From: Streptomonospora salina
Lineage (GTDB): Bacteria; Actinomycetota; Actinomycetes; Streptosporangiales; Streptosporangiaceae
Length of the DNA: 64,000 nt
Reading direction: 5' to 3'
Assembly (NCBI RefSeq): GCF_014204715.1
Contig: NZ_JACHLY010000001.1
Location: forward strand, 310,001-374,000
Shown here piece by piece: positions 6,326-27,310 of the stretch. The notes beneath the pieces are model-generated. The model had not been told where the DNA came from and made no database searches. It saw nothing but the letters and a program-made list of their open reading frames with translations. A program made the translations under genes and the position numbers. Each line of letters opens with the position of its first letter. Position 1 is the stretch's first letter.

Positions 6326-7400
6326 GTGGATCCGGCCGCCGTCGACGAACTGCGCGAGGACCTCGACGCGTTCTGCGCCGAGGTCTTCGCCTCGATCCCC
6401 CGCCGCGACACCCGCGCGTGGGGCCACCGCTACCTGCGCGGACTCATGCTCGACGGTCGCCGCAAACCCATCCAACCCATGGCCGGTCGCCTGCCCGACG
6501 GCGGCATGCAGACCCTGCAGCGGTTCGTCGGCCAGTCGCCCTGGGACCCCGCCCCCGTCCAGCGCGGTATCGCCACCAAGGTCAGCCGGGCCATCAGCCC
6601 CGCCGCCCGGATCGTCGACGACACCACCGTGCCCAAGGCCGGCTCCCAGTCGGCGGGCGCGGCCCACCAGTGGTGCGGCGCGCTGGGCAGCAGGCCGTGT
6701 GCCAGGACTTCACCAGCCTGCACGCGGTCACCGACGCTGCCTCGGTCCCGCTCGCTGTCCTGGCGACTGTTCCTGCCCGAGTCCTGGGCCGATGCGGCCG
6801 ACGAGCGCCGCGCGAAGACGGGTGTGCCCGAGCATGCGGGTCACCGCGAGAAGTGGCGCCTGGCCCTGGACATGATCGACCAGGCCCGGTCGTGGGGGCT
6901 GTGGTCCCGCCGGTGGTGGGCGGTGACGCGGGCTATGGCAACAACCACGGCTTCCGCGCCGGGCTGGCCCGGCGCGGCCTGGACTACGTGGTGGCGGTGC
7001 GCGGTGACCTCAGCGCCCATGCCGGCGATGCGGTGCCCCAGGCGCCGGAACGCACCGGAGGCCGGGGGCCGGCGCCGCTGCCGCGCTACCGCGCCCCGGC
7101 CCGGTCGCTGAAGGACCTGGCCATCGCCCAGGGCCGGTCTGATGCTGCGGCGCTGCACCTGGCGCCGGGGCTCGCGCGGGTCGAAGCGGGGCCCGTTCCT
7201 GGTCATGGCGGTGCGTCCGGCCGGGGTGGCCGCACGCAGTGCGGCGCTGGAGCGCACGGGCGGGCGCACCGGCTGGGACGGGCTTCTGCCCGCCGAGACG
7301 CTCATCGCCGAATGGCCGCCCCACGAGCCCGAACCCACCGGGTACTGGCTGTCCAACCTGTCGGCCCACACGCCGCTGCGGCACCTGGCAGCGCATCGCC
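6326..7400 (+). pseudogene. IS701-family transposase with several frameshifts
   Basis: Pieces of one IS701-type DDE transposase appear in turn in two reading frames: VDELREDLDAFCAEVFASIP and RYLRGLMLDGRRKPIQPMA at the start, IVDDTTVPKAG (first catalytic region), SLHAVTDAASVPL in the next frame, SWRLFLPESW back in the first, GDAGYGNNHGFRAGL, and finally TGYWLSNLSAHTPLRHL. At least four shifts separate them, so the gene is dead. The C-terminal end is replaced at about 7400 by an IS5 fragment. Confidence 0.8.
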
Positions 7401-7404
7401 GACC

Positions 7405-7803
7405 GGCTGCGCATCGGCGCCGGCTCCGGCCAGCGGGGCGACGCTCCGATGTTCGCGCCGCTGATGGGCGATTCGCGGCTGCCCCGCAGCCGGGGCCGGC
7501 CGCGCACGCGCCCGGACCGGGTGCTGGGCGACACGGCCTACTCCTCGGCGGCCATCCGGTCCCACCTGCGCCGGCGCGCCATCACCGCGACGATCGCCCA
7601 GCCCGCCGACCAGCGCCAACGCCGCAGAAGCAAAGGCGCGGCGGGCGGCGATCCTACCGGGGCCGCACCACCGTGGAGCGGGCGATCAACCTGGTCAAGC
7701 AGAACCGGGCCGTGGCGACCAGGTACGACACGCGGGCCGCGGTCTATGACGGCACGATCCAACTCGCCGCGATCCGGATCCGGCTGCGCGACCTCACCCG
7801 TTC
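7405..7803 (+). pseudogene. IS5-family transposase, C-terminal half, frameshifted
   Basis: Residues VLGDTAYSSAAIRSHLRRR carry the second catalytic aspartate region of IS5 transposases (normally DKAYSSRAIRxHLRRR). After a shift near 7650 the other frame gives TTVERAINLVKQNRAVATRY with the last catalytic glutamate, ending IRLRDL. It is joined directly to the IS701 fragment on its left and to an NlpC/P60 tail on its right. Confidence 0.75.
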
Positions 7804-7816
7804 AACAAACACGCCC

Positions 7817-7913
7817 TACGCCCCGTCTCCCGGGCAGACCCGTGCACACCCGCCCCGTGCAGGACGACTGCTACAGCCCGCGGTTCATGGGCGCCGTCCG
7901 CCCATCCGAATAG
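7817..7913 (+). pseudogene. NlpC/P60 C-terminal remnant, copy 2
   Basis: This stretch repeats 656-749 with roughly 85 percent identity: APSPGQT in one frame, then, after a single inserted base, CYSPRFMGAVRPS and TAG at 7911-7913. It starts only a few bases after the IS5 end. Both copies probably come from the same cell-wall peptidase gene, broken by IS activity. Confidence 0.55.
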
Positions 7914-8059
7914 GGCCGATTCCGGCCATCACACAGGAAGATCCGCATCCCCACGATCCGCTTACGGTGTATACGGCTGTCGGGGGTCTACCGCACGCCG
8001 AAACGGGGCAGGCCCCACAGCGCTACTCCCCGCACCCCACCGATCGCTAGGAGCCCTCC

Positions 8060-10246: not shown

Positions 10247-10275
10247 TTGACTCCCCAGTTCTCGGTTCTTAGCGT
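10247..10275 (+). promoter_or_regulatory. Promoter of the pyridine-degradation operon
   Basis: TTGACT (10247-10252) and TAGCGT (10270-10275) are separated by 17 bases in an AT-rich stretch, fitting a housekeeping sigma-70 promoter. It is the only strong candidate upstream of the ABC transporter gene at 10360. Confidence 0.55.
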
Positions 10276-10359: not shown

Positions 10360-11142
10360 ATGGAATCGAGATTCATCTCCGCACATGGCATCGGGATGCG
10401 CTTCGGCGGAACCAGCACCGCACAGCCCGTCCTGGAGGCCCTCGACCTGACCGTCGCCCCCGGAGCCTTCGTCACCCTGCTCGGACCGTCGGGCTGCGGC
10501 AAGAGCACACTGCTGAAGATCCTGGGCGGCCTCCTGGAACCCACCGACGGAGAGATTTCGATCGGGGGCCGACCGCCCTCGGAAGCAGTCGACCGGCGCC
10601 AGATCGGCCTCGTTCCGCAGCGGCCGGCCCTGCTGCCGTGGAAGACCGCTCTGCAGAACACATGTGTACTGCGCGACGTCGCCACCGGAAAGGGCCGCAG
10701 CGCCGAGTCCCTCCGGGCGGCCGAGAACGCGCTCGCCTTGGTCGGCCTACAGGACGCGGCCGACAAGCTGCCTCATCAACTCTCAGGCGGTATGGCCCAG
10801 CGGGTCTCTATCGCCCGCGCGCTGGCCATGGACCCCGAGATCCTGCTGATGGACGAGCCCTTCGGTGCCCTCGATGCCATCACCCGCGACGAGATGAACG
10901 AGAAGCTCGCCGAAATCTGGGCCCAGACGGGAAAGACCATCGTCTTCGTTACCCACGCGATCGGCGAAGCGGTCTTCCTTTCCGACACGGTGCACGTCAT
11001 GGGCGCCGATCCCGGGCGGCTCGTGAAGACGCTCGATATCGCCCTCCCCCGCCCGCGCGACCGCGACGTGTTCGACGACCCGGTGTTCACCGACTACACC
11101 TCCCGGCTGCGCGACCTGCTCGAACCGAAAGCGACGGTGTGA
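10360..11142 (+). CDS. ABC importer ATP-binding subunit (SsuB/TauB-like)
   Basis: 260-residue nucleotide-binding subunit of an importer of the nitrate/sulfonate/taurine-thiamine-precursor type. Walker A GPSGCGKST is at 42-50, the Q-loop at VPQRPALLPWK, signature LSGGMAQR at 141-148 and Walker B ILLMDEP at 161-167, followed by the switch histidine VTHAIGEA. GGAAGG precedes ATG 10360. It is the first gene of a nine-gene row in one direction. The next start lies 2 bases after its stop, so the subunits are translationally linked. Confidence 0.9.
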   Translation: MESRFISAHGIGMRFGGTSTAQPVLEALDLTVAPGAFVTLLGPSGCGKSTLLKILGGLLEPTDGEISIGGRPPSEAVDRRQIGLVPQRPALLPWKTALQNTCVLRDVATGKGRSAESLRAAENALALVGLQDAADKLPHQLSGGMAQRVSIARALAMDPEILLMDEPFGALDAITRDEMNEKLAEIWAQTGKTIVFVTHAIGEAVFLSDTVHVMGADPGRLVKTLDIALPRPRDRDVFDDPVFTDYTSRLRDLLEPKATV

Positions 11143-11144
11143 CC

Positions 11145-11984
11145 ATGGCGACCGCAGCACCCAGCGTTCCCGCCCGCGGCCGTAGCCGACCGGGCCCGAC
11201 CGCCCCCGGTCGGCTACGGCAGTGGTACTCCCGTACCTGGCCCAGCGCCCTCCTGCTCCTGGCCGTGCTCGCGGTGTGGGAACTGGCGGTAGCCCTTTTC
11301 GGGGTCTCGGAGTTCGTCGTCGCCCCGCCGAGCGCCTTCGCCGCCGAGACCTGGAACTCCCGCGAGTTGCTGCTCGCAGCCGCCTGGATCACCACCCAGG
11401 AGATCCTCTACGGATTCCTGATCAGCATCGCAGTAGGTGTAGGCCTGGCCGTGGTGATCGCGCGGTTCAGCTGGGTCGACCGGGCCGTCTACCCGCTCGT
11501 GGTCCTGTTCCAAGTGGTCCCCAAGGTGGCGCTGGCCCCGATCTTCATCCTCTGGTTCGGCTACGGCATGACACCCAAACTGCTGCTGGTCGTGGTGATC
11601 GCATTCTTCCCGATCACACTCAACATGCTCGTAGGGCTGCGCAGCATCGACCCGGACCTGCTGCTGCTGATGAAGTCGGTCGGCGCCACCCGCAACCAGA
11701 TCCTCGCCCGGATCCAGATCCCCACCTCACTGCCCTATCTCTTCGCGGGGATGCGGATCGCCATCACGTTGGCGGTGATCGGCGCCGTCGTCGCCGAGTT
11801 CGCCGGAGCCTCCGACGGCCTCGGCTACCTCATCCAGTTCGCCTCGACCCAGCTCGACACGCCGCTCATGTTCTCCGCCCTGATCCTCGTATCGCTGCTG
11901 GGACTGGTCCTGTACTACGGGATGTCGCTCGCCGAGTTCACCCTGGCGCGCCGGTTCCCCCACATCACGGCCGAATCCCACTAG
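11145..11984 (+). CDS. ABC importer permease (BinI/SsuC-like)
   Basis: 279 residues with about six membrane helices starting near residue 30 (SALLLLAVLAVWELAVALF). The EAA loop that docks on the ATPase is visible as LLLMKSVGATRNQILARIQIP (about residues 185-205). ATG 11145 lies 2 bases behind the ATPase stop. Together with the ATPase and the lipoprotein at 12069 it forms a complete importer. Since the downstream genes degrade a pyridine ring, vitamin B6 or one of its pyridine-carboxylate breakdown products is the likely cargo (inference). Confidence 0.88.
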   Translation: MATAAPSVPARGRSRPGPTAPGRLRQWYSRTWPSALLLLAVLAVWELAVALFGVSEFVVAPPSAFAAETWNSRELLLAAAWITTQEILYGFLISIAVGVGLAVVIARFSWVDRAVYPLVVLFQVVPKVALAPIFILWFGYGMTPKLLLVVVIAFFPITLNMLVGLRSIDPDLLLLMKSVGATRNQILARIQIPTSLPYLFAGMRIAITLAVIGAVVAEFAGASDGLGYLIQFASTQLDTPLMFSALILVSLLGLVLYYGMSLAEFTLARRFPHITAESH

Positions 11985-12068
11985 GCCCGGCGCGGTCGTC
12001 GCCGCGTATCCGGCCCCCCGCACCGACATCCCCGAGCGCTCCCTGCGCATGCCCTTTTGGAGTACGCC

Positions 12069-13139
12069 ATGCCATACACCGCCTACCACCGCTCACCGAT
12101 CCGATCCGTGCTGCGCGCGAGCACCGCCATGGCCGCCTCGGCGCTACTGCTGGCCGCCGCGGCCTGCGGGGCCGACGGCGCCGAAGACCAGGGCTCCACA
12201 ACGGTCACCGTGCAGCTCGACTACCAACTGCGCGGCAATCACGGCATGTTCCACGTCGCCCAAGAGGAGGGCTACTTCGAGGACGCCGGGATCGAGGTCG
12301 AGGAGATCACCACCGGCTCCGGCTCGCCCGACGCCCTGCGCACCGTCGGCAAGGGCCAGGCCGACTTCGGCTTCGCCGACCTGCCCTCCCTGGTCACAGC
12401 ACGTTCCCAAGGTGTTCCCGTGCAAGCCCTCGCCGCGGTCAACCAGGTCTCGCCGCTGGGCATGTGCACGCTCGAGGACAACGTGCAGCTGAGCTCGGTC
12501 ACGGACCTGCGCGGCCTGAAGATCGGGGTGCACCCCGCCGGATCGACCTACATCTTCTACGAGGCCATGATGGCCGCCAACGACCTCGGCCGGGACCAGG
12601 TCGAGGAGGTCACCGTGACCCCGCCCTACGAGAACTATTTGCTCGAAGGGCAGGTTGACGCCGTCATCTGCTACGTCGACGCCGAAGTTCCCCTTCTGCG
12701 CCAGCATGCCGGCGGCGAAGGCTCGCTCAGTGTCCTGCTCGGTGCCGACGCCGGCTACGACGCCTACGGATCCGGCCTGACCACCAATGACGACATGATC
12801 GAACAGAACCCCGAAACGGTGCAGGCGTTCACCGACGCCTACCTCAAGGCCTTCGAGTACGTCGCCGACCACCCGGATGAAACCGCGGAGATCCTGGCGG
12901 CTTCCGCACCGGAGCAATCAGACAACGCCGCTCTCTTCCAGAAACAGCTGCAGGCCGACATCGATCAGACCTTCACCAGCCCCGCTACCGAGGAGAACGG
13001 TCTGGGAGCGATGGAACAGCAGCGGTGGCAGGCGACCGTCGACATCCTCGCCGAACAGGACGCCCTGAAGGGACAGGCTCCGCCGGTGGAGGAGGTTTAC
13101 GACCCCTCGTTCCAGGAGTCCTACCACTCCGGGAGCTGA
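12069..13139 (+). CDS. ABC importer substrate-binding lipoprotein, NMT1/THI5-like
   Basis: 356 residues. A signal peptide ends in the lipobox LLAAAAC (cysteine about residue 32), so the mature protein is a membrane-anchored binding lipoprotein. The fold is NMT1/THI5-like: VQLDYQLRGNHGMFHVAQEE(GYF) then GSPDALRTVGKGQADFGFAD. This family binds thiamine pyrimidine precursors, and its eukaryotic THI5 relatives use pyridoxal phosphate as a precursor, which fits a B6-type ligand. ATG 12069 is chosen because GGAG stands 6 bases before it; an in-frame TTG at 12057 lacks such a site. Confidence 0.87.
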   Translation: MPYTAYHRSPIRSVLRASTAMAASALLLAAAACGADGAEDQGSTTVTVQLDYQLRGNHGMFHVAQEEGYFEDAGIEVEEITTGSGSPDALRTVGKGQADFGFADLPSLVTARSQGVPVQALAAVNQVSPLGMCTLEDNVQLSSVTDLRGLKIGVHPAGSTYIFYEAMMAANDLGRDQVEEVTVTPPYENYLLEGQVDAVICYVDAEVPLLRQHAGGEGSLSVLLGADAGYDAYGSGLTTNDDMIEQNPETVQAFTDAYLKAFEYVADHPDETAEILAASAPEQSDNAALFQKQLQADIDQTFTSPATEENGLGAMEQQRWQATVDILAEQDALKGQAPPVEEVYDPSFQESYHSGS

Positions 13140-13193
13140 CCGGATCGCAACGCGCCGCACGCTGAACGCCGACACGAAGAGGCGAAGAACCTG

Positions 13194-14345
13194 ATGACAC
13201 ACACCACCGGCGGCCGCGGCCGCCACGCCGAGATCGCGGGCGCGGGGTTCGCAGGGCTGACCGCGGCAGCGGCCCTGGCCCGTCTCGGCTGGACGGTACG
13301 CGTCCACGAGAAGGGCGAACATCTCCGCGAGCAGGGCGCCGGCATCGTGCTCTGGCACAACAGCATCCGCGTCCTGGAGGCGATCGGGGCCTACGAGGAG
13401 GCCGCGGCGGACTCCATGACTCCCCCGTACTACGAAACGCGGATGCACGGCCAGACCGTGTCCAAGGAGGACTTCGGTGGCCTGCCCTGGCGGACCATGA
13501 GCCGCCCGCACCTGCACCGCTGCCTGCTGGAGGCGGCGCGGCAGGCCGGGGCGGAGATCCGCAGCGGCTCGGAAGCGGTGGCCGCCGACCCCGCCGGGAC
13601 CCTCACTCTGGCTTCCGGGGAGACCCGGGAGGCCGACCTGGTCGTCGGCGCCGACGGAGTGCGCTCCCGAGTGCGCGACTCGATCGGTTTCGAGCAGGAC
13701 CGGTGGAAGTCCACCGACGGGATCATCCGCTTTCTCGTACCGCGGCACAAGACCGAATTGGGGCCCGGCGAGTGGGACAACGTGATCGATTTCTGGAATC
13801 TGGAGCCGCGCTACCTGCGCGTCCTCTATGTGCCCTGCAACGAGCGCGAACTCTACATCGCACTGGGAGCTCCCCGGTCCGATGAGCAGGGCAGCCGCAC
13901 CCCCATCGACCTCGACCTGTGGACCTCGGTCTTTCCGGACCTGGCTCCGGTGCTGCGCTCGGCTGCCGTCGCCGAGGACGCCCGTTACTACGGCTACCAG
14001 ACCACGCAGCTGCACAGCTGGACCAGCGGGCGGGTCGCGCTGGTCGGGGACTCGGCCCACGCCATGTGCCCGGCGCTGGCCCAGGGCGCAGGGACCGCGA
14101 TGGCCAACGCCTACACCCTCGCCCAGGCTGCGACCGCCGCAGACCCCGGCTCCGCGGCGGTCACCGGCGCCCTGGCCGAGTGGGAGCGGCGGGAACGGCC
14201 CATCACCGACCGCTGCCAGCGCCGCTCCGCCGATTACGCCGCCACACGCCGGATGTCACAGGGCCATCAGTTCGGCCCCGAAAACCTGGAAACCGCTGTT
14301 TACGACCCCACCGATCCCCGACGCCACACCGCCGGGGCGCACTAG
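13194..14345 (+). CDS. 2-methyl-3-hydroxypyridine-5-carboxylate oxygenase (MHPCO)
   Basis: 383-residue FAD monooxygenase predicted to add O2 to 2-methyl-3-hydroxypyridine-5-carboxylate and open the ring to (2-acetamidomethylene)succinate with NAD(P)H. FAD sites: GAGFAG (16-21), DG motif GADGVRSRVRDS (152-163), GD motif VALVGDSAHAMCPALAQGAG (281-300). Beyond these common hydroxylase motifs, stretches such as GAGIVLWHNSIRVLE, QTVSKEDFGGLPWR and GFEQDRWKSTDG agree closely with the Mesorhizobium loti enzyme as I remember it, and the length is nearly the same (379). Plain salicylate hydroxylases lack these stretches. It is the central ring-opening step. Confidence 0.85.
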   Translation: MTHTTGGRGRHAEIAGAGFAGLTAAAALARLGWTVRVHEKGEHLREQGAGIVLWHNSIRVLEAIGAYEEAAADSMTPPYYETRMHGQTVSKEDFGGLPWRTMSRPHLHRCLLEAARQAGAEIRSGSEAVAADPAGTLTLASGETREADLVVGADGVRSRVRDSIGFEQDRWKSTDGIIRFLVPRHKTELGPGEWDNVIDFWNLEPRYLRVLYVPCNERELYIALGAPRSDEQGSRTPIDLDLWTSVFPDLAPVLRSAAVAEDARYYGYQTTQLHSWTSGRVALVGDSAHAMCPALAQGAGTAMANAYTLAQAATAADPGSAAVTGALAEWERRERPITDRCQRRSADYAATRRMSQGHQFGPENLETAVYDPTDPRRHTAGAH

Positions 14346-14416
14346 CCGGACCGTTCCGGCACTTCGCCTGCGGCCCGCCGACCGCAGCGACAGCCATCGT
14401 GAGAGGAGCACCGGCC

Positions 14417-15016
14417 ATGACCGGCGCAGCTGAAGTCGAAAAGCACTACCGGGTTCGCCGCTGGGTGGGCACCGTCGAGGAGATCGTGCACGAGAACGGG
14501 CCCCGGCCCGACGAACCCCTGGTCAAGGCGGCCTGCGGCGTCGTGATCGGCAATCCTTTCGCCGGCTCCTATGCCACGGACCTTTCGGCGCTGACCGCTC
14601 CCAGCGCCGCCCTGGGCACGGAGCTGGGTCGGCGGGCCGCCGCGCTGCTGGGCGACCGCGAGGTGCAGAGCTACGGCAAGGGCGGCATCGCCGGAGTCAA
14701 CGGCGAGCAGGAGCACGTTGTGGCCTGCGTGACCACCGTCTTCGGCGATGCCCTGCGGGCGGCGGTGGGCGGAGGCACCGCCTGGATCTCATCGGCTACC
14801 AAGACCGCTGCGCCGGGTACTCCCATCGACATCCCGCTGGCGTTCAAGGACGAGATCTACGTGCGCTCCCACTACGACGCGATCACGCTGAGCGCGCCCG
14901 ACGCTCCACGCCCCGACGAACTGCTGATCTGCGTCGCCGTGGCCACCCGCGGGCGCGTTCACCACCGCGTCGGCGGCCTCGACGCCGAAGAGGCTCGGGC
15001 GGCGTCCTCCTCCTGA
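14417..15016 (+). CDS. Amino acid synthesis (AA_synth, DUF1185) family protein
   Basis: 199 residues, start ATG 14417 with GAGAGGAG upstream. The sequence HENGPRPDEPLVKAACGVVI, then NPFAGSYATDLSAL and YGKGGIAGVNGEQEHVVA, is characteristic of the AA_synth family, whose biochemical function is not established. Such genes often accompany ring-cleavage and amidohydrolase operons. Here it lies between the ring-opening oxygenase and the decarboxylase, in the same direction and with short gaps, so it probably acts on or near a pathway intermediate. I do not assign a reaction. Confidence 0.75.
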   Translation: MTGAAEVEKHYRVRRWVGTVEEIVHENGPRPDEPLVKAACGVVIGNPFAGSYATDLSALTAPSAALGTELGRRAAALLGDREVQSYGKGGIAGVNGEQEHVVACVTTVFGDALRAAVGGGTAWISSATKTAAPGTPIDIPLAFKDEIYVRSHYDAITLSAPDAPRPDELLICVAVATRGRVHHRVGGLDAEEARAASSS

Positions 15017-15069
15017 GCACGGTTCGAAACCACAGTTCCATTCGCACCACCCCGCACGGAAGGTCCGCC

Positions 15070-15810
15070 ATGTCCCACAGCGACGCCCTGTACAGCCAGG
15101 ACGAGTCGATCGGCAACGTGCTGTGCGAACTCGCCCGTGCCCACCGGATCCTCGAGTTGGAGGGGCACGGCGACATGTCCATGGGCCACCTCTCCTACCG
15201 CGATCCCCACGGCCGCGGACTCTGGCTCAAACAGGGCAATCTCGGCTTGGAGGAGGTCGAGGGCCACCACTTCGTCCTGATCGACTTCGACGGCAACGTG
15301 CTGGAGGGCCAAGGGCTGCGGCACCTGGAGTGGCCGCTGCACGCCGAGATCATGCGCGCCAGGCCCGACGTGGCCGTGGTCGGGCACTCCCACGCCTTCT
15401 ACGCCACCGTGTTCGGCGCAACGGACGGCGAAATCGGCCCCTACGTCAACCACGCGGTGTGGTTCGCCGACCACGGCGTGCCCCGATTCAGCGAGACCAG
15501 CCACATCGTCACCACGCCGGAGCTGGGCAGGGCCGTGGCCGCCGCCCTCGGCCCGGCCGAGGCCGTCCTGCTGGCCAACCATGGGATCGCCTTCGTCGGC
15601 AAGGACGTCGGCGACGCCACCCTCGCCGGGATCTTTTTGGAGTGGGCGGCCAAGGCGCAACTGGCGCTGCGCTCGTCCGGACTGGCACACACGCCTCCCG
15701 ACGCTGCGGAGACCGTCGACAAGCACCGGCGGATCTACCCCCAGCGAGCCCGCAACAACTACTGGATGTACTTCAACCGAAAGCTCGACGCGCACGAGAC
15801 CCGGCGCTGA
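15070..15810 (+). CDS. 3-hydroxy-2-methylpyridine-4,5-dicarboxylate 4-decarboxylase
   Basis: 246-residue class II aldolase-fold enzyme. The metal site is built by the HSH of VVGHSHAFYATVF (about residue 108) and a later histidine, probably in LLANHGIAFVG; the acidic residue in LEWPLHAEIM lies nearby. In vitamin B6 degradation a member of this fold removes the 4-carboxylate from the dicarboxylate to give the substrate of the ring-opening oxygenase encoded two genes upstream. Length fits the M. loti enzyme (234). Alone, the fold could also be a sugar-phosphate aldolase; the company of the other three pathway enzymes makes the decarboxylase the best call. Confidence 0.78.
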   Translation: MSHSDALYSQDESIGNVLCELARAHRILELEGHGDMSMGHLSYRDPHGRGLWLKQGNLGLEEVEGHHFVLIDFDGNVLEGQGLRHLEWPLHAEIMRARPDVAVVGHSHAFYATVFGATDGEIGPYVNHAVWFADHGVPRFSETSHIVTTPELGRAVAAALGPAEAVLLANHGIAFVGKDVGDATLAGIFLEWAAKAQLALRSSGLAHTPPDAAETVDKHRRIYPQRARNNYWMYFNRKLDAHETRR

Positions 15811-15860
15811 AAGCGTCCGCGGCGCCCCGCGCCGACACGACTCGCATAGGAGGAACCGCC

Positions 15861-16793
15861 ATGAACGTCCCCGGCATCTGCGCCGTAATCGGCTCGGGCA
15901 CCATGGGCCCCGGCATCGCCGCGCTGCTGGCACGCCACGGAGCCGACGTCCGCCTCAACGACATCAGCCGGGAGGCCCTCGACCGCGCCGAATCCGCATG
16001 CACGGCCGCCGCCGGCGCACTCGACCAACTCGGCACGCCCGTCACCGAGGGCGGATCGGTCTCCTTCGAGCTGGACGCGGCGGCGGCCCTCGACAGCGCC
16101 GAACTGGTCATCGAGGCCGTACCCGAAGAGATCGGACTCAAGCGCCGCGTTCTAGAACAGATCGAGGCCGCTGTGGGCACCGACGTCGTGATCGCGACCA
16201 ACACCTCCGGCATCCCGATCTCGGACATGGCCGCCGCCATGGAACACCCGCAGCGCCTGATCGGCATGCACTGGTCCAACCCGCCGCACCTGATCCCGAT
16301 GATCGAGGTGATCCGCGGCGAGCGGACCGACTCCGCAGTCGAGACGGCGACCGTGGCGATCGTCGAGGCGCTCGGCTATAAGGCGGTGATGGAAAAGGAG
16401 GTCCCCGGATTCGTGGAGAACCGGGTGCTCTACGCGATCATGCGCGAGTGCCTGTCCCTGCTCGAACAGGGCGTGGCCACCCAGGAAGACATCGACACCT
16501 GCGTGAAGTGGGGTATCGGCTACAAGCTGGCCGTGATCGGCCCCATGCGTCTGCTGGACATGGCCGGCCTCGACATCTACTCGTCGGTGTCGGGCTACCT
16601 CAATCCCGACCTGTCCGATGAGAAGGGGATCTCCCCCATGGTGACGAAGCTTACGGAGCAGAACCGCCTCGGGATGAAGACGGGGGACGGGATGTACCCC
16701 TACGCCGAGGGAGAGGTCGCCGCCAAGCGCACCGACATCCTGCGCGGCCTTGTCACCGTGCGCAAGGCGCTCTCCGAGATCACGCCGGTCTGA
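15861..16793 (+). CDS. 5-formyl-3-hydroxy-2-methylpyridine-4-carboxylate dehydrogenase
   Basis: 310 residues, 3-hydroxyacyl-CoA dehydrogenase fold but working on a pyridine aldehyde: NAD+-dependent oxidation of the 5-formyl group to the 4,5-dicarboxylate. The NAD loop is GSGTMGPGIA (11-20). The catalytic histidine is in GMHWSNPPHLIPMIEVI (H137). Long stretches, such as VPGFVENRVLYAIMREC and WGIGYKLAVIGPM then LLDMAGLDIYSSVSGYLN, match the M. loti enzyme as remembered and differ from fatty-acid HADs. AGGAGG lies 7 bases before ATG. It supplies the decarboxylase encoded just upstream. Confidence 0.85.
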   Translation: MNVPGICAVIGSGTMGPGIAALLARHGADVRLNDISREALDRAESACTAAAGALDQLGTPVTEGGSVSFELDAAAALDSAELVIEAVPEEIGLKRRVLEQIEAAVGTDVVIATNTSGIPISDMAAAMEHPQRLIGMHWSNPPHLIPMIEVIRGERTDSAVETATVAIVEALGYKAVMEKEVPGFVENRVLYAIMRECLSLLEQGVATQEDIDTCVKWGIGYKLAVIGPMRLLDMAGLDIYSSVSGYLNPDLSDEKGISPMVTKLTEQNRLGMKTGDGMYPYAEGEVAAKRTDILRGLVTVRKALSEITPV

Positions 16794-16802
16794 GGCGGAC
16801 CG

Positions 16803-17681
16803 ATGACCGAACCCCTGTCGTTCACCCGATCCGCGCCCGCCGAGCTGTGCTATCGCGAGCAAGGCTCGGGGCCGAACGTGGTACTGCTGCACGGCACTAC
16901 CGCCAGCCTGGGCGTATGGGATCCGGTGGTGGAGCTGCTGGGCAGCGGTGTCCGCACGATCGCACTCGACCAACGCGGGCACGGCCGCAGCGCCAAGCCC
17001 GCCGACGGTTACACCGCCGACCGCTTCTGCGCAGACGTAGGCGCCCTCCTCGACGAACTCGGCTGCGACAGGGCGGTGCTCTGCGGCCACTCGCTGGGCG
17101 CCCGCAACGCGGTGGCGCTCGCCGCCGAGCGGCCCGAGCGCGTGGCGGGTGTGGTCGCGGTCGACTACACGCCCTACGTCGAGCCCGCCGTGCTCGACGA
17201 CCTCGAATCGCGCGTACGCGGGGGCGACCGGCTCTTCGATTCCGCGACCGAAGTCGAGGAATACCTGCGCAACCGCTACCCGCGCACACCCCGCGAGGCC
17301 CTGCGACGCAGAATCGCCTACGGCTATACCCGCGTCGACGGCGGCCTGCGCGCACTGGCCGACCCCGACGCGATGCACCAGACGGTCCAAGGTCTGCGTA
17401 CCGACTTCGCCGAGGCGATGCGCGACGTGGCCGTCCCCGTCACCCTCCTGCGCGGCGAAGCGAGCCGGATCGTCTCCGAGCGCGCCTTCGCCGCAACCAG
17501 GCGATTACGTCCCGACCTGCGGGCGCTGGAGGTGGCCGAGGCCGACCACTACGTTCCCGAGCAGCATCCGCGGACCGTCGCCGACGAGATCACCCGCCTG
17601 CTGGAGGAAGCGGAGCGAGGCACCGCGCCGCTCTCGCTATCCGACACCGACCACCGAATAGGAGACGAACCATGCCTTTGA
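16803..17681 (+). CDS. (2-acetamidomethylene)succinate hydrolase
   Basis: 292-residue alpha/beta hydrolase expected to cut the ring-opened product to succinic semialdehyde, acetate, ammonia and CO2. The nucleophile is Ser97 in GHSLGARNAV, preceded by DQRGHGRSAKPADGY. The histidine is H249 in ADHYVPEQ. VAVDYTPYVEPAVLDDLESR and VDGGLRALADPDAMHQTVQG agree with the M. loti hydrolase at positions that ordinary hydrolases do not keep. It starts 9 bases after the dehydrogenase stop and overlaps the next gene by 10 bases, so it belongs to the same transcript. Confidence 0.84.
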   Translation: MTEPLSFTRSAPAELCYREQGSGPNVVLLHGTTASLGVWDPVVELLGSGVRTIALDQRGHGRSAKPADGYTADRFCADVGALLDELGCDRAVLCGHSLGARNAVALAAERPERVAGVVAVDYTPYVEPAVLDDLESRVRGGDRLFDSATEVEEYLRNRYPRTPREALRRRIAYGYTRVDGGLRALADPDAMHQTVQGLRTDFAEAMRDVAVPVTLLRGEASRIVSERAFAATRRLRPDLRALEVAEADHYVPEQHPRTVADEITRLLEEAERGTAPLSLSDTDHRIGDEPCL

Positions 17682-18133
17682 ACATCCGCGACCTCTCGAT
17701 CGCCGCCGATCAGTTCGAACAGGGTGAGCGGATCCCCGACGTCCACGTCGGAAACGGCGGCGATACCGCACCCGACCTGGAGATCTCCGGAGTCCCGGAC
17801 GGGACCGTGGAGCTCGCCGTCGTCTGCCACGATCCCGACGCGCCGCTCCCGCGCGGGTTCACGCACTGGACGGTTTACGGGATCGCGCCTTCCACCGCCC
17901 GTATCGGCGGGAACGGCGGAGGCTCCGACCGCCGCGAAGGCCCCAACACACTCGGGGAGAACGCCTACACCGGTCCCAACCCTCCCCCCGGCCACGGCAC
18001 GCACCACTACTACTTCTGGGTCTACGCGCTCGACACCCGAGTCGACGGCGCACCCTCGCGCGAGGCGTTCCTCGCCGACTACGCCGGAAACATCATCGAG
18101 CAGAACCGGATCGTCGGCATCTACTCGGCCTGA
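17672..18133 (+). CDS. YbhB/YbcL-like PEBP family protein
   Basis: 153 residues of the phosphatidylethanolamine-binding-protein fold: VCHDPDAPLPRGFTHWTVYG contains the conserved DPDxP and HW pocket residues, and GPNPPPGHGTHHYYFWVYAL is the second signature. ATG 17672 has AGGAG 7 bases before it and overlaps the hydrolase gene. Bacterial members bind small anionic ligands, but no enzymatic role is established. Its place as the last gene of the pyridine operon suggests it handles an anionic intermediate or protects a protein; this is inference. Confidence 0.85.
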   Translation: MPLNIRDLSIAADQFEQGERIPDVHVGNGGDTAPDLEISGVPDGTVELAVVCHDPDAPLPRGFTHWTVYGIAPSTARIGGNGGGSDRREGPNTLGENAYTGPNPPPGHGTHHYYFWVYALDTRVDGAPSREAFLADYAGNIIEQNRIVGIYSA

Positions 18134-18137
18134 GGCC

Positions 18138-18178
18138 GGGTGGAGGTGCGCCCGCCCCGTGCGGGCGCACCTCCACCC
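18138..18178 (+). terminator. Strong terminator hairpin ending the operon
   Basis: An 18-bp perfect stem (18138-18155 with 18161-18178, outer arm GGGTGGAGGTGCGCCCGC) closes a 5-base loop, 5 bases behind the PEBP stop. There is no long T-run, as is common in high-GC actinomycetes. It separates the nine-gene operon from the regulator. Confidence 0.75.
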
Positions 18179-18283
18179 GCATCGGAGCTTCCCGGTCCCC
18201 GGCCTCTGGCACTCTGTGAATGCCCGCCAGCGCGGCCCGGACGCCGCACGACCAAACAGGAATGAAGAGAGGAGGGGGACGCA

Positions 18284-19048
18284 GTGACAGAGGTGCGAGG
18301 CCGCACCCCCGGCGTGGACAGCGCGCGCCGGGTCCTGAAGGCACTGCTCCAGTTCTCCGAGCAGTCTCCCGAGCTCACCGTAGACGACGTCGCCCAGGGC
18401 GTCGGCATCTCCACACCCTCCGCCTACCGGTTCCTGTCCCTGCTGCGCGAGCTGGACCTCGTCGAAGACAACGACGCGGGCGGCTACGTCCTCACCCCGC
18501 GCATCCTCGCCCTCGCCGAGACCGCCGAACGCAGCATGCGCATGTCCCACGTCCTGCGCCCCATGGTGGAACGCCTTTCCTCGGTCACCGGGGAGACCGC
18601 TCTGGTCATCCGTCGCGCCGGCGACTTCGCCACCTGCACGGAGATATCCCAAGCCGACCGGTCCATCCGGCTGTCGTTCCGACCCGGCCAGACCATGAGT
18701 CTGCACCATGGCGCGGGTCCCAAGGCGCTGCTCGCCGGTATGGGCCGGGAGTGGGCCGAGCGCTACTTCGACCGGCTGGACAACCGGCCTCCTCCCGCCG
18801 AACGCGATGCGGTGCTGGCCGAGCTGCCGCTCATCACGGCGCAGGGCTGGTCGCAAAGCGTTTCGGAGGTGGACGAGGACGTCTGGGCGGTAGCGGCACC
18901 CATCACGGTGTCGAACCGGATGGTGGCGGTGATCAGCGTCGCCGGCCCCCAGTACCGAATCGACGAGGAACGCGCCGCCCGCATCCGCGAGGAAGTCGTC
19001 AACGACGCCGCCGAGGTCTCACGCAAGTTGAGCACCTGGCGTGATTGA
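18284..19048 (+). CDS. IclR family transcriptional regulator
   Basis: 254 residues. The N-terminal winged helix reads SARRVLKALLQFSEQSPELT, VDDVAQGVGISTPSAYRFLS, then LRELDLVEDNDAGGYVLTPRIL. The C-terminal IclR effector domain includes RPGQTMSLHHGAGPKALLAG and AVAAPITVSNRMVAVISVAGP. GTG 18284 is preceded by GAGGAGGGGG. It lies between the pyridine-degradation operon and the aldehyde dehydrogenase gene on the same strand, and is the natural candidate to sense a pathway compound and act at the dyads near 10281-10312. Confidence 0.9.
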   Translation: MTEVRGRTPGVDSARRVLKALLQFSEQSPELTVDDVAQGVGISTPSAYRFLSLLRELDLVEDNDAGGYVLTPRILALAETAERSMRMSHVLRPMVERLSSVTGETALVIRRAGDFATCTEISQADRSIRLSFRPGQTMSLHHGAGPKALLAGMGREWAERYFDRLDNRPPPAERDAVLAELPLITAQGWSQSVSEVDEDVWAVAAPITVSNRMVAVISVAGPQYRIDEERAARIREEVVNDAAEVSRKLSTWRD

Positions 19049-19184
19049 GCCCGCAGAGGCGCCGACCGCCCGCCGCCCTTACCCCTGGCCTGGAGCACGC
19101 ACCGGGCCCTGGCGAGCGGGGGGGTTCCGAACATGCGGCACCGCCCGCTTCACGGCTACGGCACAACACCGAAGGCAGGATGGT

Positions 19185-20627
19185 ATGAGTACACCGGTTC
19201 CGTTCTGGGTCGCGGGCACCCCACGCCACAGCACCGAGTCCACACCCATCACCCACCCTTACGACAACGCCCCCGTCGCCCGCGCCTCCATCGCCACCGA
19301 CGCCGACGCGGCCGAAGCGACCGCGGCCGCACACGCCGCCGCCGAACCCTTCGCCCGCGCCAGTGCAGCACAACGCTCCCGCTCCCTGGACCATGTCGCC
19401 CGCCGCCTCACCGAACGCACCGACGAAATCGCCGAGCTCATCACCGCCGAAAACGGAAAGCCCCTGCGCTGGGCACGGGCGGAGACCGGCCGTGCCGCCT
19501 CGGTATTCCACTGGGCGGCCGAGGAAGCTCGCCGCTTCGGCGGAGAGTGGCAACGCCTCGACACCGACCCCCAGTCACCCGGCGGAGTCGCTTTGGTCGC
19601 CCGGCACCCGCGGGGACCCGTCCTGGGCATCACCCCCTTCAATTTCCCCCTCAACCTCGTGGCGCACAAGGTCGCACCGGCACTGGCTGTGGGCGCCCCC
19701 ATCATCGTCAAACCCGCCCCGGCCACGCCCTTGAGCGCGCTGCTTCTAGGAGAACTGCTGGCCGAAACCGCCCTTCCCTCCGGTTCCTGGTCGATCCTGC
19801 CTCTGCCCAACGACCGCATGCCCAGACTCGTCGCCGATACGCGCCTTCCGGTGGTGTCCTTCACCGGATCAGGACCCGTCGGCCGATCCATCCGCGAGGC
19901 CGTTCCGCACAAGCACGTCACCCTGGAGCTGGGCGGCAACGCCGCAGCGGTCGTTTGCGACGACTGGTCCACCCCCGCAGACCTCGCCTGGGCCGCCGAC
20001 CGCATCGCGGTATTCGCCACCTACCAAGCCGGCCAGTCCTGCATCGCGGTGCAACGCGTCTTCGCCGACAGCACGATCGCCGCCGAACTCACCGAGCGGG
20101 TGGTGCAGCGTGTCGCGACGCTGGCGACGGGAGACCCGCGCGATGAGCACACCCAGGTCGGGCCGCTCATCGACGAGGAGGCCGCCCGCCGCGTGGAGCA
20201 GTGGGTCGCCGAGGCCGCCGACGCAGGCGCGCGCATCCGTACCGGCGGTCACCGCACCGGCGCCGAATATGCGCCCACCGTGCTCACCGGTGTGCCGTCC
20301 ACGGCCAGACTGGCCTGCGAGGAGGTCTTCGGCCCGGTCCTCACGATCGACGAGGTCGACGGGCTCGACGAGGCGTTCGACCGGGTCAACGACTCCCGGT
20401 TCGGGTTGCAGACCGGGGTGTTCACCCACCGCAGCGACTCCGCCTTCGCCGCGCTCGCCCGGCTGCACGTGGGCGGCGTCGTCATCGGCGACGTGCCCAG
20501 CGTCCGCGCCGAACACGTGCCCTACGGCGGCGTGAAGGAATCGGGCGTGGGCCGCGAAGGGGTAATGGCCGCCATGACCGACCTCACCGAACCACGTGTC
20601 CTGGCCTTCCCCGGCGTATCCCTGTAG
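19185..20627 (+). CDS. Aldehyde dehydrogenase, probable succinic semialdehyde dehydrogenase
   Basis: 480 residues, NAD(P)+-dependent aldehyde dehydrogenase. GITPFNFPLNLVAHKVAPAL and IVKPAP form the cofactor site, E248 in TLELGGN is the general base and C286 in YQAGQSCIAVQ the nucleophile. FGPVLTI and the C-terminal VKESGVGREG are also standard. ATG 19185 is chosen at the start of homology, with GGCAGGATGG before it; the frame is open further upstream without meaning. Placed after the B6 operon and its regulator, it most likely oxidises the succinic semialdehyde released by the hydrolase, feeding succinate to the TCA cycle. The aldehyde preference is inferred from context. Confidence 0.82.
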   Translation: MSTPVPFWVAGTPRHSTESTPITHPYDNAPVARASIATDADAAEATAAAHAAAEPFARASAAQRSRSLDHVARRLTERTDEIAELITAENGKPLRWARAETGRAASVFHWAAEEARRFGGEWQRLDTDPQSPGGVALVARHPRGPVLGITPFNFPLNLVAHKVAPALAVGAPIIVKPAPATPLSALLLGELLAETALPSGSWSILPLPNDRMPRLVADTRLPVVSFTGSGPVGRSIREAVPHKHVTLELGGNAAAVVCDDWSTPADLAWAADRIAVFATYQAGQSCIAVQRVFADSTIAAELTERVVQRVATLATGDPRDEHTQVGPLIDEEAARRVEQWVAEAADAGARIRTGGHRTGAEYAPTVLTGVPSTARLACEEVFGPVLTIDEVDGLDEAFDRVNDSRFGLQTGVFTHRSDSAFAALARLHVGGVVIGDVPSVRAEHVPYGGVKESGVGREGVMAAMTDLTEPRVLAFPGVSL

Positions 20628-21039: not shown

Positions 21040-21897
21040 TCACTCCGCCGGCGCCGCCTTGGGCCGGCCCAGCTGCGCGCCTCCGGCCGCGAGGTCGGCG
21101 ACGGCGCCCACGGTGGCGAACTCGACACCGTAGGCCGCGATGCGGTCCAGCCACTCCTCCAAGCGCAGCAGCCGGTGGCCGCGGCCGATCACCTGGGGGT
21201 GGCAGGTGACCGTGAGCACGCCCTGCTCGGTCTCGCGCAGCATGTAGCGCAGGTCCGCCTCCCAGTCGGCGAACATCCGCTCGGCGTCGCCCAGTCCGGG
21301 CAGGGTGCGCGCGGGCGAGCTGAGGAACTCCAGGTGCGGCAGATCGTCGAGGGTCCAGCTGACCGGAACCTCCACCAGCGGGGTCTCCTCTCCCCACCGC
21401 GCGCTGTCGGCGTCCACCCGGTCGCCGATGCGGCACCGGTAGGGGGCGTAGTCGTGGCCCATCAAACTGCTGTCGTAGCGCAGCCCGCGCTCGTTGAGCA
21501 GCGCCACGGAGTTCTCCGACAGGTCCCAGGCCGGCGCGCGGAACCCCGCGGGCTCGACGCCCGCCGCTTCCCGCAGCGCCTCGACCGAGCGGTCCAGAAC
21601 CGCCCGTTCGGCGCCCTCGTCCAGGGCGGCGACGTTCTCGTGGGCGTAGCCGTGCAGGGCGATCTCGTGTCCGCGGTCGCGGATCCGGCGGCACAGGTCG
21701 GGGTAGGTGCGGGCGGTGTGGCCGGGCACGAACCAGGTCGCCGGCAGACCGCGCCGCGACAGCAGGTCCAGCAGGCGGGGCACGGCCACCGCGCCGAACT
21801 CCCCGCGCGAGCGCGGTGTCGCCGACAGCTGGCCGCGGTCGACCCACACCGACAGCGCGTCGAAGTCGAACGTGAGGCAGACGTATCCGTGCGGCAT
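21040..21897 (-). CDS. Polysaccharide deacetylase-family (NodB) hydrolase, PuuE-like
   Basis: 285 residues. NodB motifs in order: TFDFD (residues 9-13, metal-binding aspartates), then HGYAHENVA (H82, H86), then FRAPAWDLSENSV. Members of this cytoplasmic type without a signal peptide include the PuuE allantoinases and other cyclic-imide or amide hydrolases, not only chitin deacetylases. ATG 21897 follows AAAGGAG. It is the last gene of a minus-strand operon with an SDR and an M20 amidohydrolase under a PucR regulator, which favours a ring-amide or N-acyl substrate over a polysaccharide. The exact substrate is unknown. Confidence 0.78.
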   Translation of the reverse strand: MPHGYVCLTFDFDALSVWVDRGQLSATPRSRGEFGAVAVPRLLDLLSRRGLPATWFVPGHTARTYPDLCRRIRDRGHEIALHGYAHENVAALDEGAERAVLDRSVEALREAAGVEPAGFRAPAWDLSENSVALLNERGLRYDSSLMGHDYAPYRCRIGDRVDADSARWGEETPLVEVPVSWTLDDLPHLEFLSSPARTLPGLGDAERMFADWEADLRYMLRETEQGVLTVTCHPQVIGRGHRLLRLEEWLDRIAAYGVEFATVGAVADLAAGGAQLGRPKAAPAE

Positions 21898-21910
21898 CGC
21901 GCGGCTCCTT

Positions 21911-22669
21911 TCAGGCCGGCGGGAGCGCGGCGTTGCCGGCTCCCACTCCACCGTCGACGGCGACGGTCGTACCGGTGATCCACTCGGCGCCCGCCGAGCA
22001 CAGGTACGCCACGGCCGAGGCGACGTCGTCGGGCACGCCGGGCCGCGGCCAGGGCCGCCCGGCCTCGACGGTCCGCACGTACTCGGCGCTGAGCGGGTTG
22101 AGGTCGCTGCCGACCTCGACGAAGCCCGGGGAGACGGCGTTGGCGCGGATGCGGTGCTCGGCGAACTCCAGGGCCAGCGCCCTGGTGAGCATGGTCAGCC
22201 CGGCTTTGGAGGTGCAGTAGTGCGCCGCTCCCCGCCGCGCCCGGTCTCCGGCGCCGGAGGTGATGTTGACGATGTCTCCCGGCCGGCCTTCGGCGACCAG
22301 CGCGCGGGCGAACTCGGTGGACAGGGCGAAGGGGCCGTCGAGGTTGGTCGCGAGCACATCCCGCCACTCGGCGTCGCTCATCTCCAGAAGCGGCCGACTG
22401 GGATACATTCCCGCCGCGTTTACCAGCACGTCCAGCCCGTCGGCGTGCTCCCAGGCGGTGCGCACGCAGGAGCGGGCCGATTCGGGGTCGGCGACGTCGG
22501 CCGCGACGGTGCTGACACGCTCGGGAGCCGCGAGCTCCTCGGCCGTGCGGGCGCATCGCGCCTCGTCGCGGTCGCTGAGCACGACCCGCGCGCCCTCGGC
22601 GAGGAACCGGCGGGCGATCGCCCTTCCGATGCCGCCCGACGCCCCGGTGACCAGCACTGTGCGACTCAC
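21911..22669 (-). CDS. SDR family oxidoreductase
   Basis: 252 residues of a classical short-chain dehydrogenase. TGASGGIGRAIA binds the cofactor, NAAG supports the fold, and the catalytic set is Ser in NITSGAG, Tyr and Lys in YCTSK. The end reads ITGTTVAVDGGVGAGN, typical of FabG-like members. Start GTG 22669 overlaps the stop of the upstream amidohydrolase by 4 bases, so the two are co-translated. It likely oxidises or reduces a hydroxyl of the same compound that the hydrolases process; the substrate cannot be read from sequence. Confidence 0.87.
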   Translation of the reverse strand: MSRTVLVTGASGGIGRAIARRFLAEGARVVLSDRDEARCARTAEELAAPERVSTVAADVADPESARSCVRTAWEHADGLDVLVNAAGMYPSRPLLEMSDAEWRDVLATNLDGPFALSTEFARALVAEGRPGDIVNITSGAGDRARRGAAHYCTSKAGLTMLTRALALEFAEHRIRANAVSPGFVEVGSDLNPLSAEYVRTVEAGRPWPRPGVPDDVASAVAYLCSAGAEWITGTTVAVDGGVGAGNAALPPA

Positions 22670-24018
22670 GCTTCCTCCTGGATCTCGTGGCGGTTCATGC
22701 CCCGGCGCAGGGCCAGGTACTGCGGTAGCGACAACGGCGGCGGCGACGCGTGCAGCACCCGGCGGGCCTCGCGGGCGCCGTCGGCGAGCAGGTCGACGAC
22801 GGCGCCCGCGAGGTAGAGCGCGGGCTCGACGGCGGCGGCGCGGTGGTCGACGATCCGGTAGCCGGTGCTGTGGTGGTCGCCCTCGGCGCCGCCGCTGTAG
22901 GGGTGGGAGACGGGCATGACGTGGGCGAGGTCGCCCATGTCGGTGCAGGCTCCCAGGTGGCGGCCGCGTGCGGTCGCCTCCGCGCCCATGAGGGGGTGGG
23001 CGTTGCGCGCGACGACGTCGTCCAGCCCCGGTGCGGACGTCAGCGGGAGGTAGGCGAGCAGGGTGTCGGTCTCCACCCGGGCGCCCAGCGCGAGCGCTCC
23101 GGCGCGTGCCGCGCGGGTGAGTGCCTCGGCGGCCCGCTCCAATCCCTCGACGGTGCGGGCGCGGACCATGGTGTGCAGCACGGCCGATGCGGGCACCGAG
23201 CCGAGTGCGCCCGCGTCGCCGGTGATCCGGTAGTTCAGCCGCACGTCGTCGCCGTCGGGGAACGTCTCGCGCTGAGCGTCGACGGCGTGGGCGGCCACGG
23301 TGGCGGCCTTGAGGGCGTTGACGCCCAGCCACGGACTGGAGCCTGCGTGGGCGGAGCGGCCGGTGAAGCGGGCGCGCACCACGCAGGAACCGTTGAGGGT
23401 GTCGCCCACGGAGAAGCGCGGGCCGCCGCCGCGCCCGGTGTGGGCGAGCAGGGCCATATCGACGTCGTCGAAGGCGCCCAGGCGCAGCAGTTCGGCCTTG
23501 CCGACGGGGAACTCGACGCGGTCGGAGCCGCCGGCGGGTGCGCCGGCGGCGTCCATGATCCCGTCGACGTCGCCCAACTCTTCGGCGGGGGCCGCGATCA
23601 GCGCGGCGGAACCGTCGAGTTCGGCCATGACCTCGCCCAGTCCGATCGCGGCTCCGGCGACCGCCGCGAGCTGGGCGTGGTGGCCGCAGGCGTGCGCCGC
23701 ACCGGTGGCGGGGTCGGCCAGCGGGTGCTCGGGCAGGGTGAGCGCATCGAGTTCGCCGACCAGCGCCACGCGCGGGCCCGCACCGCCGCCGGGCAGTACC
23801 GCCTTGACCCCGGTGCGGGCCAGCCCGGTACGCGGCTGCAGACCCGCTTCGGTCAGCCAGGCGGCGAAGCGCTCCGCGGTGGCGTGCTCGGCATAGCCCG
23901 GTTCGGGGCGGCGCATCAGCTCGTCGCTCAGGGCGGCGATCTCCTCGGCGCGGCGTTCGACGGCAGCGTGCGCGGCCGCCTTCAGGCGCGGGGCGGTACC
24001 GCTCATGGGCGCCCGCAT
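22666..24018 (-). CDS. M20 family amidohydrolase
   Basis: 450 residues of a metal-dependent M20D-type amidohydrolase. HACGHHAQLAA (zinc/metal ligands) near residue 107, PAEELGD with the catalytic glutamate about residue 143, and RFTGRSAHAGSSPWLGVNAL in the lid domain. The family hydrolyses N-acyl or N-aminobenzoyl amino acids and peptide-like amides. It is the first enzyme gene behind the PucR regulator (86-base gap) and overlaps the SDR by 4 bases. Start ATG 24018 is the first in frame; ATG 24006 (MSGTAP) is equally possible because neither has a clear ribosome site. Confidence 0.85.
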   Translation of the reverse strand: MRAPMSGTAPRLKAAAHAAVERRAEEIAALSDELMRRPEPGYAEHATAERFAAWLTEAGLQPRTGLARTGVKAVLPGGGAGPRVALVGELDALTLPEHPLADPATGAAHACGHHAQLAAVAGAAIGLGEVMAELDGSAALIAAPAEELGDVDGIMDAAGAPAGGSDRVEFPVGKAELLRLGAFDDVDMALLAHTGRGGGPRFSVGDTLNGSCVVRARFTGRSAHAGSSPWLGVNALKAATVAAHAVDAQRETFPDGDDVRLNYRITGDAGALGSVPASAVLHTMVRARTVEGLERAAEALTRAARAGALALGARVETDTLLAYLPLTSAPGLDDVVARNAHPLMGAEATARGRHLGACTDMGDLAHVMPVSHPYSGGAEGDHHSTGYRIVDHRAAAVEPALYLAGAVVDLLADGAREARRVLHASPPPLSLPQYLALRRGMNRHEIQEEA

Positions 24019-24104
24019 CGGCGGGCGGGCGCGCCGCCGAACGCCGCGTGCTCAGCTCGGATGATCACGGCAGCCAGTATGGGGGCGGCGGGTGCCGCGT
24101 GGCC

Positions 24105-25730: not shown

Positions 25731-25741
25731 ATGCCCACCCC

Positions 25742-25759
25742 CTTGTCGCCGACGACAAG
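25742..25759. promoter_or_regulatory. Dyad in the PucR/M20 divergent promoter region
   Basis: CTTGTCG-CCGA-CGACAAG is a perfect 7-bp inverted repeat 11 bases upstream of the PucR start, in the 121-base gap between divergent genes. It may be the PucR binding site. Confidence 0.4.
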
Positions 25760-25851
25760 TCCCGACCCGTTCTTCATATCAGCGCATCATTACAGCGCGA
25801 TGATCACTCGCCGACACTGGCGGCCAGGTTTCGGCGAAGGAGGCAAGGTCC

Positions 25852-26967: not shown

Positions 26968-26984
26968 AGGGACGTGAGAGTCAA

Positions 26985-27305: not shown

Positions 27306-27310
27306 TCGCC

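Follow-up and report, generated by a model that had tools for sequence, protein, structure and literature searches.

Two routes for the breakdown of the vitamin B6 ring have been described, according to excerpts of PMC3538738: pathway I of Mesorhizobium loti MAFF303099, and pathway II, through 5-pyridoxate, of Pseudomonas IA and of the actinobacterium Arthrobacter Cr-7, where it ends in 2-(hydroxymethyl)-4-oxobutanoate. In Acinetobacter baylyi, the trigonelline (tgn) pathway involves succinic semialdehyde, and one of its proteins, TgnF, belongs to the AA_synth family (PMC7913881, in excerpt). Here we analysed a stretch of 64,000 nucleotides from Streptomonospora salina (contig NZ_JACHLY010000001.1, positions 310,001 to 374,000; hereafter the window), in which ten tightly spaced + strand genes at 10360-19048 form one block according to open reading frame calls and Pfam. 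Their order is importer ATPase, permease, binding protein, oxygenase, AA_synth protein, aldolase-fold protein, dehydrogenase, hydrolase, PEBP-like protein and IclR regulator. This block is probably a single catabolic operon under IclR control whose substrate is a 3-hydroxy-2-methylpyridine carboxylate, in all likelihood 4-pyridoxate. As far as sequence can tell, the assignment is based on the relationships and kept active-site residues of the oxygenase, the dehydrogenase and the hydrolase, on the conserved gene order and on a palindrome in the promoter region; we infer the identity of the imported pyridine, the decarboxylation step, the regulation by IclR and the roles of the AA_synth and PEBP proteins.

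For each of these three enzymes, the best match among all PDB chains was an M. loti enzyme. The oxygenase matched the 2-methyl-3-hydroxypyridine-5-carboxylate (MHPC) oxygenase MHPCO (3alj) with 486.9 bits and 61.2% identity over 366 aligned residues, and the next PDB molecule scored only 88.2 bits, which sets it well apart from other group A flavoprotein monooxygenases. It keeps Y82, R211, Y223 and Y270, which we take to be the substrate-pocket residues of MHPCO, and CPA at 294-296, while Y54 is replaced by V. The same residues and CPA were found in the four orthologues described below and in four relatives 44-46% identical to the M. loti enzyme, whereas positions 82, 270 and CPA were altered in all seven aligned relatives of 37-41%, with R211 and Y223 retained; this alignment took in three of the eight relatives of 42-43% and four of the 12 plasmid records, a Sinorhizobium relative (L050) having no matching called frame. 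On two plasmids, of Rhodococcus and Arthrobacter (L022 and L023), a gene annotated TorT, an amidohydrolase and a sugar-type ABC importer accompany an MHPCO relative that is 38-39% identical to M. loti; these oxygenases differ at positions 82, 270, 294 and 296 and therefore probably act on another substrate.

The dehydrogenase was closest to the M. loti 5-formyl-3-hydroxy-2-methylpyridine-4-carboxylate (FHMPC) 5-dehydrogenase 4om8 (308 bits, 49.7% over 298), with 9fbd as runner-up (158 bits, 34.4%), and the motif HWSNPPH is common to the window enzyme and 4om8 where 9fbd reads HFFNPVP. The hydrolase matched the 2-(acetamidomethylene)succinate (AAMS) hydrolase 3kxp (242.7 bits, 48.6% over 253), the runner-up entry scoring 70.6 bits. 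S106, D130, R146, R167, Y168, R179, H258, Y259 and E262 are all kept, D130 being presumably a member of the catalytic triad, and Ile41 of the oxyanion hole, a main-chain binder, is Thr in the window enzyme. In the M. loti hydrolase S106 and H258 are catalytic and R146, R167, Y168, R179 and Y259 bind the substrate (PMC3538738, in excerpt). A search of 72,556 plasmid records returned no AAMS hydrolase relative at E 1e-20.

The block is conserved as a unit. Of 345 genomes of the order, 17 hold relatives of MHPCO at E 1e-60 or better: five, among them the window genome itself, at 77-100% identity, four at 49-50% and eight at 42-43%; at the same threshold, a wider phylum sample gave two of 396 genomes, again counting the window genome. 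The FHMPC dehydrogenase, searched at 1e-70 or better, was present in five of the 345 genomes, the same five, and these carry all ten genes in the same order and orientation. They belong to four genera, and such conservation is therefore beyond chance. One of them is Streptomonospora alba (G690), of the window's own genus; a single-protein scan of genome contigs returned S. alba and 12 distant relatives (31-39%).

Other clusters of the order (L041-L044) centre on an MHPCO relative of 49-50% identity in which the checked residues are the same. In three of these four the PEBP gene directly adjoins the oxygenase relative, and it is absent from that place in L043, a 5-kb contig. Unlike the window operon, the stretches fetched contain nothing that matches its FHMPC dehydrogenase, AAMS hydrolase, AA_synth protein or aldolase-fold protein, and carry instead genes for MBL-fold, CMD, 3-hydroxyisobutyrate-dehydrogenase-like and aldehyde dehydrogenase (ALDH) proteins. 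An ABC importer judged by eye to be of another type, an amidohydrolase and an EutQ-like cupin are also found in L041, L042 and L044, as well as in L043. These clusters possibly serve another 3-hydroxypyridine pathway.

Upstream of the first gene, a palindrome followed by GAGTAATAA is present, with some variation between them, in all five genomes, and a TTGAC box precedes the palindrome in each. A pattern built from the five sites, allowing up to 3 mismatches, matched once per genome and always upstream of the ATPase gene, with no match for the reversed-pattern control; what the search adds is that no genome holds a second such site. The 20-nt palindrome alone, at up to 2 mismatches, was found in the window genome at this site and one other place. 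We infer that the IclR protein may bind this palindrome and control the operon.

Together, these genes suggest the following sequence of reactions. The ABC importer would take up 4-pyridoxate, and the FHMPC-dehydrogenase-like enzyme would oxidise the carbon at ring position 5 to the acid, yielding 3-hydroxy-2-methylpyridine-4,5-dicarboxylate (HMPDC); were 4-pyridoxate the substrate, the same enzyme would have to perform the alcohol step too, because none of the other operon genes can be recognised as a 4-pyridoxate dehydrogenase. Next, the aldolase-fold metal protein would strip the 4-carboxylate of HMPDC to give MHPC, the FAD oxygenase would open its ring to 2-(acetamidomethylene)succinate, and the hydrolase would convert the latter into acetate, ammonia, CO2 and succinic semialdehyde, from which an ALDH, beside the operon or elsewhere, could make succinate. 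That the enzymes of one block correspond to consecutive steps of one pathway supports this assignment. The imported substrate is likely 4-pyridoxate or a later intermediate. As the intermediate before these lower steps and the end product to which B6 is broken down elsewhere, 4-pyridoxate is the obvious candidate; it has been found in rats and humans (PMC6253932, in excerpt).

Several observations weigh against the B6 operon as proposed. The dehydrogenase scored 399.1 bits against the NCBIfam equivalog NF042925 (FHMPC_DH) and, because the cut-off is 500, is not filed as a member; we regard it as a probable functional counterpart of FHMPC 5-dehydrogenase outside that equivalog. 4-pyridoxolactonase, the sole upper enzyme searched (query identical to 3aj3), had no match at E 1e-5 in either the window genome or G620, and its matches in the remaining three genomes were partial only; the organism may therefore import a ready-made pyridine acid. 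Finally, the HMPDC decarboxylase mlr6791 (2z7b) was only the fifth PDB match of the aldolase-fold protein (55.7 bits, 30.0%), and H135 of this protein agrees with the pyruvic oxime dioxygenase (POD) 8iqa and not with mlr6791.

The aldolase-fold protein is nevertheless the only product of the block whose fold is known for HMPDC decarboxylation. It shares H40, E87, H91, E93, H106, H108, H128 and H171 with mlr6791, all invariant in the five orthologues. H106, H108 and H171, which we take to be the metal histidines, and E87, presumably the active-site acid of the fold, are among them; this bears only on whether the protein works like such an enzyme, and the metal histidines agree with 8iqa as well. 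Its best NCBIfam match was an unspecific subfamily, PRK06208 (102.6 bits, cut-off 255), and the profile of the dihydroxyphthalate decarboxylase PhtC gave 74.3 bits (cut-off 200). Given the rest of the operon, we consider this protein likely to be the HMPDC decarboxylase.

In a rival reading, the substrate is a related, non-B6 substituted 3-hydroxypyridine and the aldolase-fold protein a dioxygenase or a true aldolase. Three chains identified as POD through PMC11841055 (in excerpt), 8iqa, 8il8 and 8ix6, are its top PDB matches (68.6, 68.2 and 67.2 bits), and a fuculose aldolase (56.6 bits) also precedes mlr6791. The lack of a full-length match to 4-pyridoxolactonase, the one upper B6 enzyme searched, in any of the five genomes points the same way, as does the breadth of the oxygenase family, which also holds KnmB1, a hydroxylase 45% identical to MHPCO (PMC9838390, in excerpt). 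However, members of the POD group reach E values below 1e-60 against AfPOD (PMC11841055, in excerpt), a level that the aldolase-fold protein does not reach: it matches 8iqa at E 6.1e-18 with 26.6% identity. Moreover, it has H40, E87, E93 and H128 in common with mlr6791 but not 8iqa, H135 being the opposite case, and the oxygenase and hydrolase keep the M. loti residues except Y54 and Ile41. We therefore regard a non-B6 substrate as unlikely.

We hold it to be still less likely that the operon serves the 5-pyridoxate route of Arthrobacter Cr-7, in which the oxygenase would open 5-pyridoxate and the hydrolase would yield 2-(hydroxymethyl)-4-oxobutanoate, to be processed by the ALDH or the aldolase-fold protein. 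The existence of this second B6 route, the weak match of the aldolase-fold protein to the known decarboxylase and the V in place of Y54 would fit; yet the dehydrogenase has the pathway I enzyme as its closest named relative, and to our knowledge the 5-pyridoxate route needs neither a decarboxylation nor an FHMPC-type 5-dehydrogenase. A biosynthetic cluster whose oxygenase hydroxylates a natural-product pyridine, like KnmB1 or CaeB6, is hardly credible despite the kinship of KnmB1 with MHPCO, as Pfam found no assembly-line family among the ten genes, which comprise instead an importer, a hydrolase for the ring product and an IclR regulator, and the MHPCO residues are kept here, whereas the catalytic residues of MHPCO/HpxO are described as unidentifiable in KnmB1/B2 (PMC9838390, in excerpt).

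Table 1. Features of the proposed operon and its surroundings (positions in the window).
Feature	Position	Strand	Remarks
Promoter-like pair TTGACT - 17 nt - TAGCGT	10247..10275	+	read by eye
Operator candidate: palindrome TCTAATA-N6-TATTAGA, then GAGTAATAA	10282..10310	+	probable IclR site, predicted
ABC importer ATPase, NitT/TauT type	10360..11142	+	PF00005; first gene of the block in five genomes
ABC importer permease	11145..11984	+	PF00528
ABC importer substrate-binding protein, NMT1/THI5-like	12069..13139	+	PF09084 (1.8e-45); lipobox-like N terminus by eye
Ring-opening FAD oxygenase, MHPCO-like	13194..14345	+	61.2% to M. loti MHPCO 3alj
AA_synth protein (PF06684, former DUF1185)	14417..15016	+	Pfam
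Class II aldolase-fold protein, probable HMPDC decarboxylase	15070..15810	+	PF00596
FHMPC 5-dehydrogenase-like enzyme, 3-hydroxyacyl-CoA dehydrogenase fold	15861..16793	+	49.7% to 4om8
AAMS hydrolase-like alpha/beta hydrolase	16803..17681	+	48.6% to 3kxp
PEBP / YbhB-YbcL-like protein	17672..18133	+	PF01161, TIGR00481; start overlaps hydrolase stop by 10 bases
IclR-family regulator	18284..19048	+	PF01614 and PF09339; closes the conserved block in five genomes
Aldehyde dehydrogenase (ALDH)	19185..20627	+	adjoins the operon in the window genome only, among five

The original prediction, made by a model from the letters of this DNA, had proposed a complete lower B6 pathway in one actinomycete operon. 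Completeness is likely: sequence identity supports it for three steps and not for the decarboxylase. The importer, FAD oxygenase, aldolase-fold protein, dehydrogenase, alpha/beta hydrolase, IclR regulator and ALDH that it listed all lie on the + strand where it had placed them, and the importer, the four enzymes and IclR do belong to one conserved block; the ALDH does not, and the AA_synth and PEBP genes had been overlooked. Its "HAD-fold" dehydrogenase is correct if 3-hydroxyacyl-CoA dehydrogenase is meant and wrong for haloacid dehalogenase. The peptide stretches that it took as diagnostic occur and match the M. loti chains, GMHWSNPPH and GHSLGARN identically, GAGIVLWHN and DYTPY nearly so (GAGIYLWHN and DFTPY in M. 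loti). The expected identity above about 40% was found, as one-way best PDB matches, for three enzymes (61.2%, 49.7% and 48.6%) and not for the decarboxylase (30.0%), and the closer kinship to other families that was to speak against the pathway applies in part to the aldolase-fold protein alone, the fuculose aldolase outscoring mlr6791 by less than 1 bit. The hydrolase gene, cited there as mlr6787, is mlr6786 in PMC3538738 (in excerpt). Nothing contradicts its remark that B6-ring operons are little described, as no paper on an actinomycete B6-degradation gene cluster was found in searches of open-licence papers.

The two further proteins of the block deserve separate consideration. The AA_synth protein belongs to PF06684 by its Pfam gathering score, with the fold of solved members, and the PEBP-like protein, kept in the five genomes, scored 111 bits against PF01161 and 82.4 bits against TIGR00481 (cut-off 57.75). 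For AA_synth proteins a solved fold and only a suggested role in amino-acid metabolism are reported (PMC2954203, in excerpt), and in Acinetobacter the homologue TgnF reportedly stimulates the TgnE-dependent oxidation of succinic semialdehyde (PMC7913881, in excerpt). Within the B6 operon as proposed, the AA_synth protein probably assists where succinic semialdehyde is formed or downstream of that reaction. We further propose, tentatively, that both proteins take a real part in 3-hydroxypyridine ring breakdown, as catalysts or as accessories, the AA_synth protein working on an intermediate that the B6 and trigonelline pathways have in common after amide cleavage (an aminomethylene- or formyl-succinate on the path to succinic semialdehyde) and the PEBP protein partnering MHPCO-type oxygenases. 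A literature search limited to a role of PEBP proteins as pericyclases found no report.

To place the AA_synth family in context, we considered its neighbours elsewhere. A plasmid search matched 385 records, of which five regions were opened (H13-H16 and H18): an annotated NAD-dependent succinate-semialdehyde dehydrogenase lies within 8 kb in H14, H16 and H18, though not in H13 or H15, and an amidohydrolase or alpha/beta hydrolase adjoins AA_synth in four of the five, H15 having neither hydrolase nor that dehydrogenase. Across the phylum, 21 of 396 genomes hold AA_synth, at 28 places in all; of the stretches that lie outside the operon 17 were fetched, one belonging to the window genome and three to a single other genome, and 16 were scored, the AA_synth gene of L100 being uncalled. 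A related permease was present in three of the 16. Against the proposed role stand the raw counts of an amidohydrolase directly beside AA_synth in 10 of these 16 loci, of an ALDH within the stretch in only five and of a FAD monooxygenase in one, as well as the statement of the authors of PMC7913881 (in excerpt) that no TgnF-like effect was seen with the AA_synth protein HcdD. The family is therefore broadly catabolic, and its link to succinic semialdehyde is suggestive but not general. If the proposal were true, two families now unassigned in catabolism would gain functions and the last steps of B6 breakdown, taken as spontaneous, would be enzyme-assisted; the presence of both proteins in all five copies makes two poorly understood families testable with known substrates.

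The ALDH as an ancestral member of the operon was rejected, since no close relative stands beside the operon in the other four genomes; L038 has an ALDH-family gene of 35% identity 0.6 kb off the operon on the opposite strand. The closest S. alba relative (87-89%) lies on another contig, in a region (L109) colinear in part with a second AA_synth cluster of the window genome (G000:C1:751000-770999, L092) that comprises transporters, AA_synth, an amidohydrolase, an FrsA-like esterase, an ALDH 83% identical to that of the window, a Rieske ring-hydroxylating oxygenase, a TPP enzyme and a DHDPS-family gene. Because of this colinearity, the ALDH beside the operon looks like a copy possibly recruited in this lineage. 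All its NCBIfam scores were under cut-off, the best being for lactaldehyde and phosphonoacetaldehyde dehydrogenases and not for succinate-semialdehyde dehydrogenase; it could oxidise succinic semialdehyde. Another ALDH relative, at G000:C1:2562739-2564067, contains one in-frame TGA.

Outside the operon, overlapping open frames at 6326-8050, upstream, resemble by eye a decayed transposase gene. Downstream, the neighbouring genes at 21040-28816 resemble by eye those for a polysaccharide deacetylase, an SDR, a pair of M20-type peptidases, a PucR-like regulator and a sodium/solute symporter; they may form a catabolic cluster of their own.

Among the known systems, trigonelline breakdown shares with this locus an AA_synth protein and succinic semialdehyde, its substrate and ring-opening enzymes being other than those of the B6 pathway. 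Pathway II, compared by description and not by gene sequence, is also a B6 degradation. The nearest likeness is to M. loti pathway I, three of whose enzymes are 49-61% identical to those of the window with most checked residues kept, and whose fourth step could be filled by a protein of the same fold as its HMPDC decarboxylase. In contrast to pathway I, the window operon has a divergent decarboxylase candidate and its genome yielded no 4-pyridoxolactonase; it also holds AA_synth, PEBP and a NitT-type importer together, the comparison with M. loti being one of enzymes and not of gene neighbourhoods. We conclude that this is a known pathway in a new lineage, compact, with two conserved partners and a divergent decarboxylase candidate, which gives gene sequences to actinomycete B6-ring degradation and separates a conserved ten-gene module from the neighbouring ALDH.

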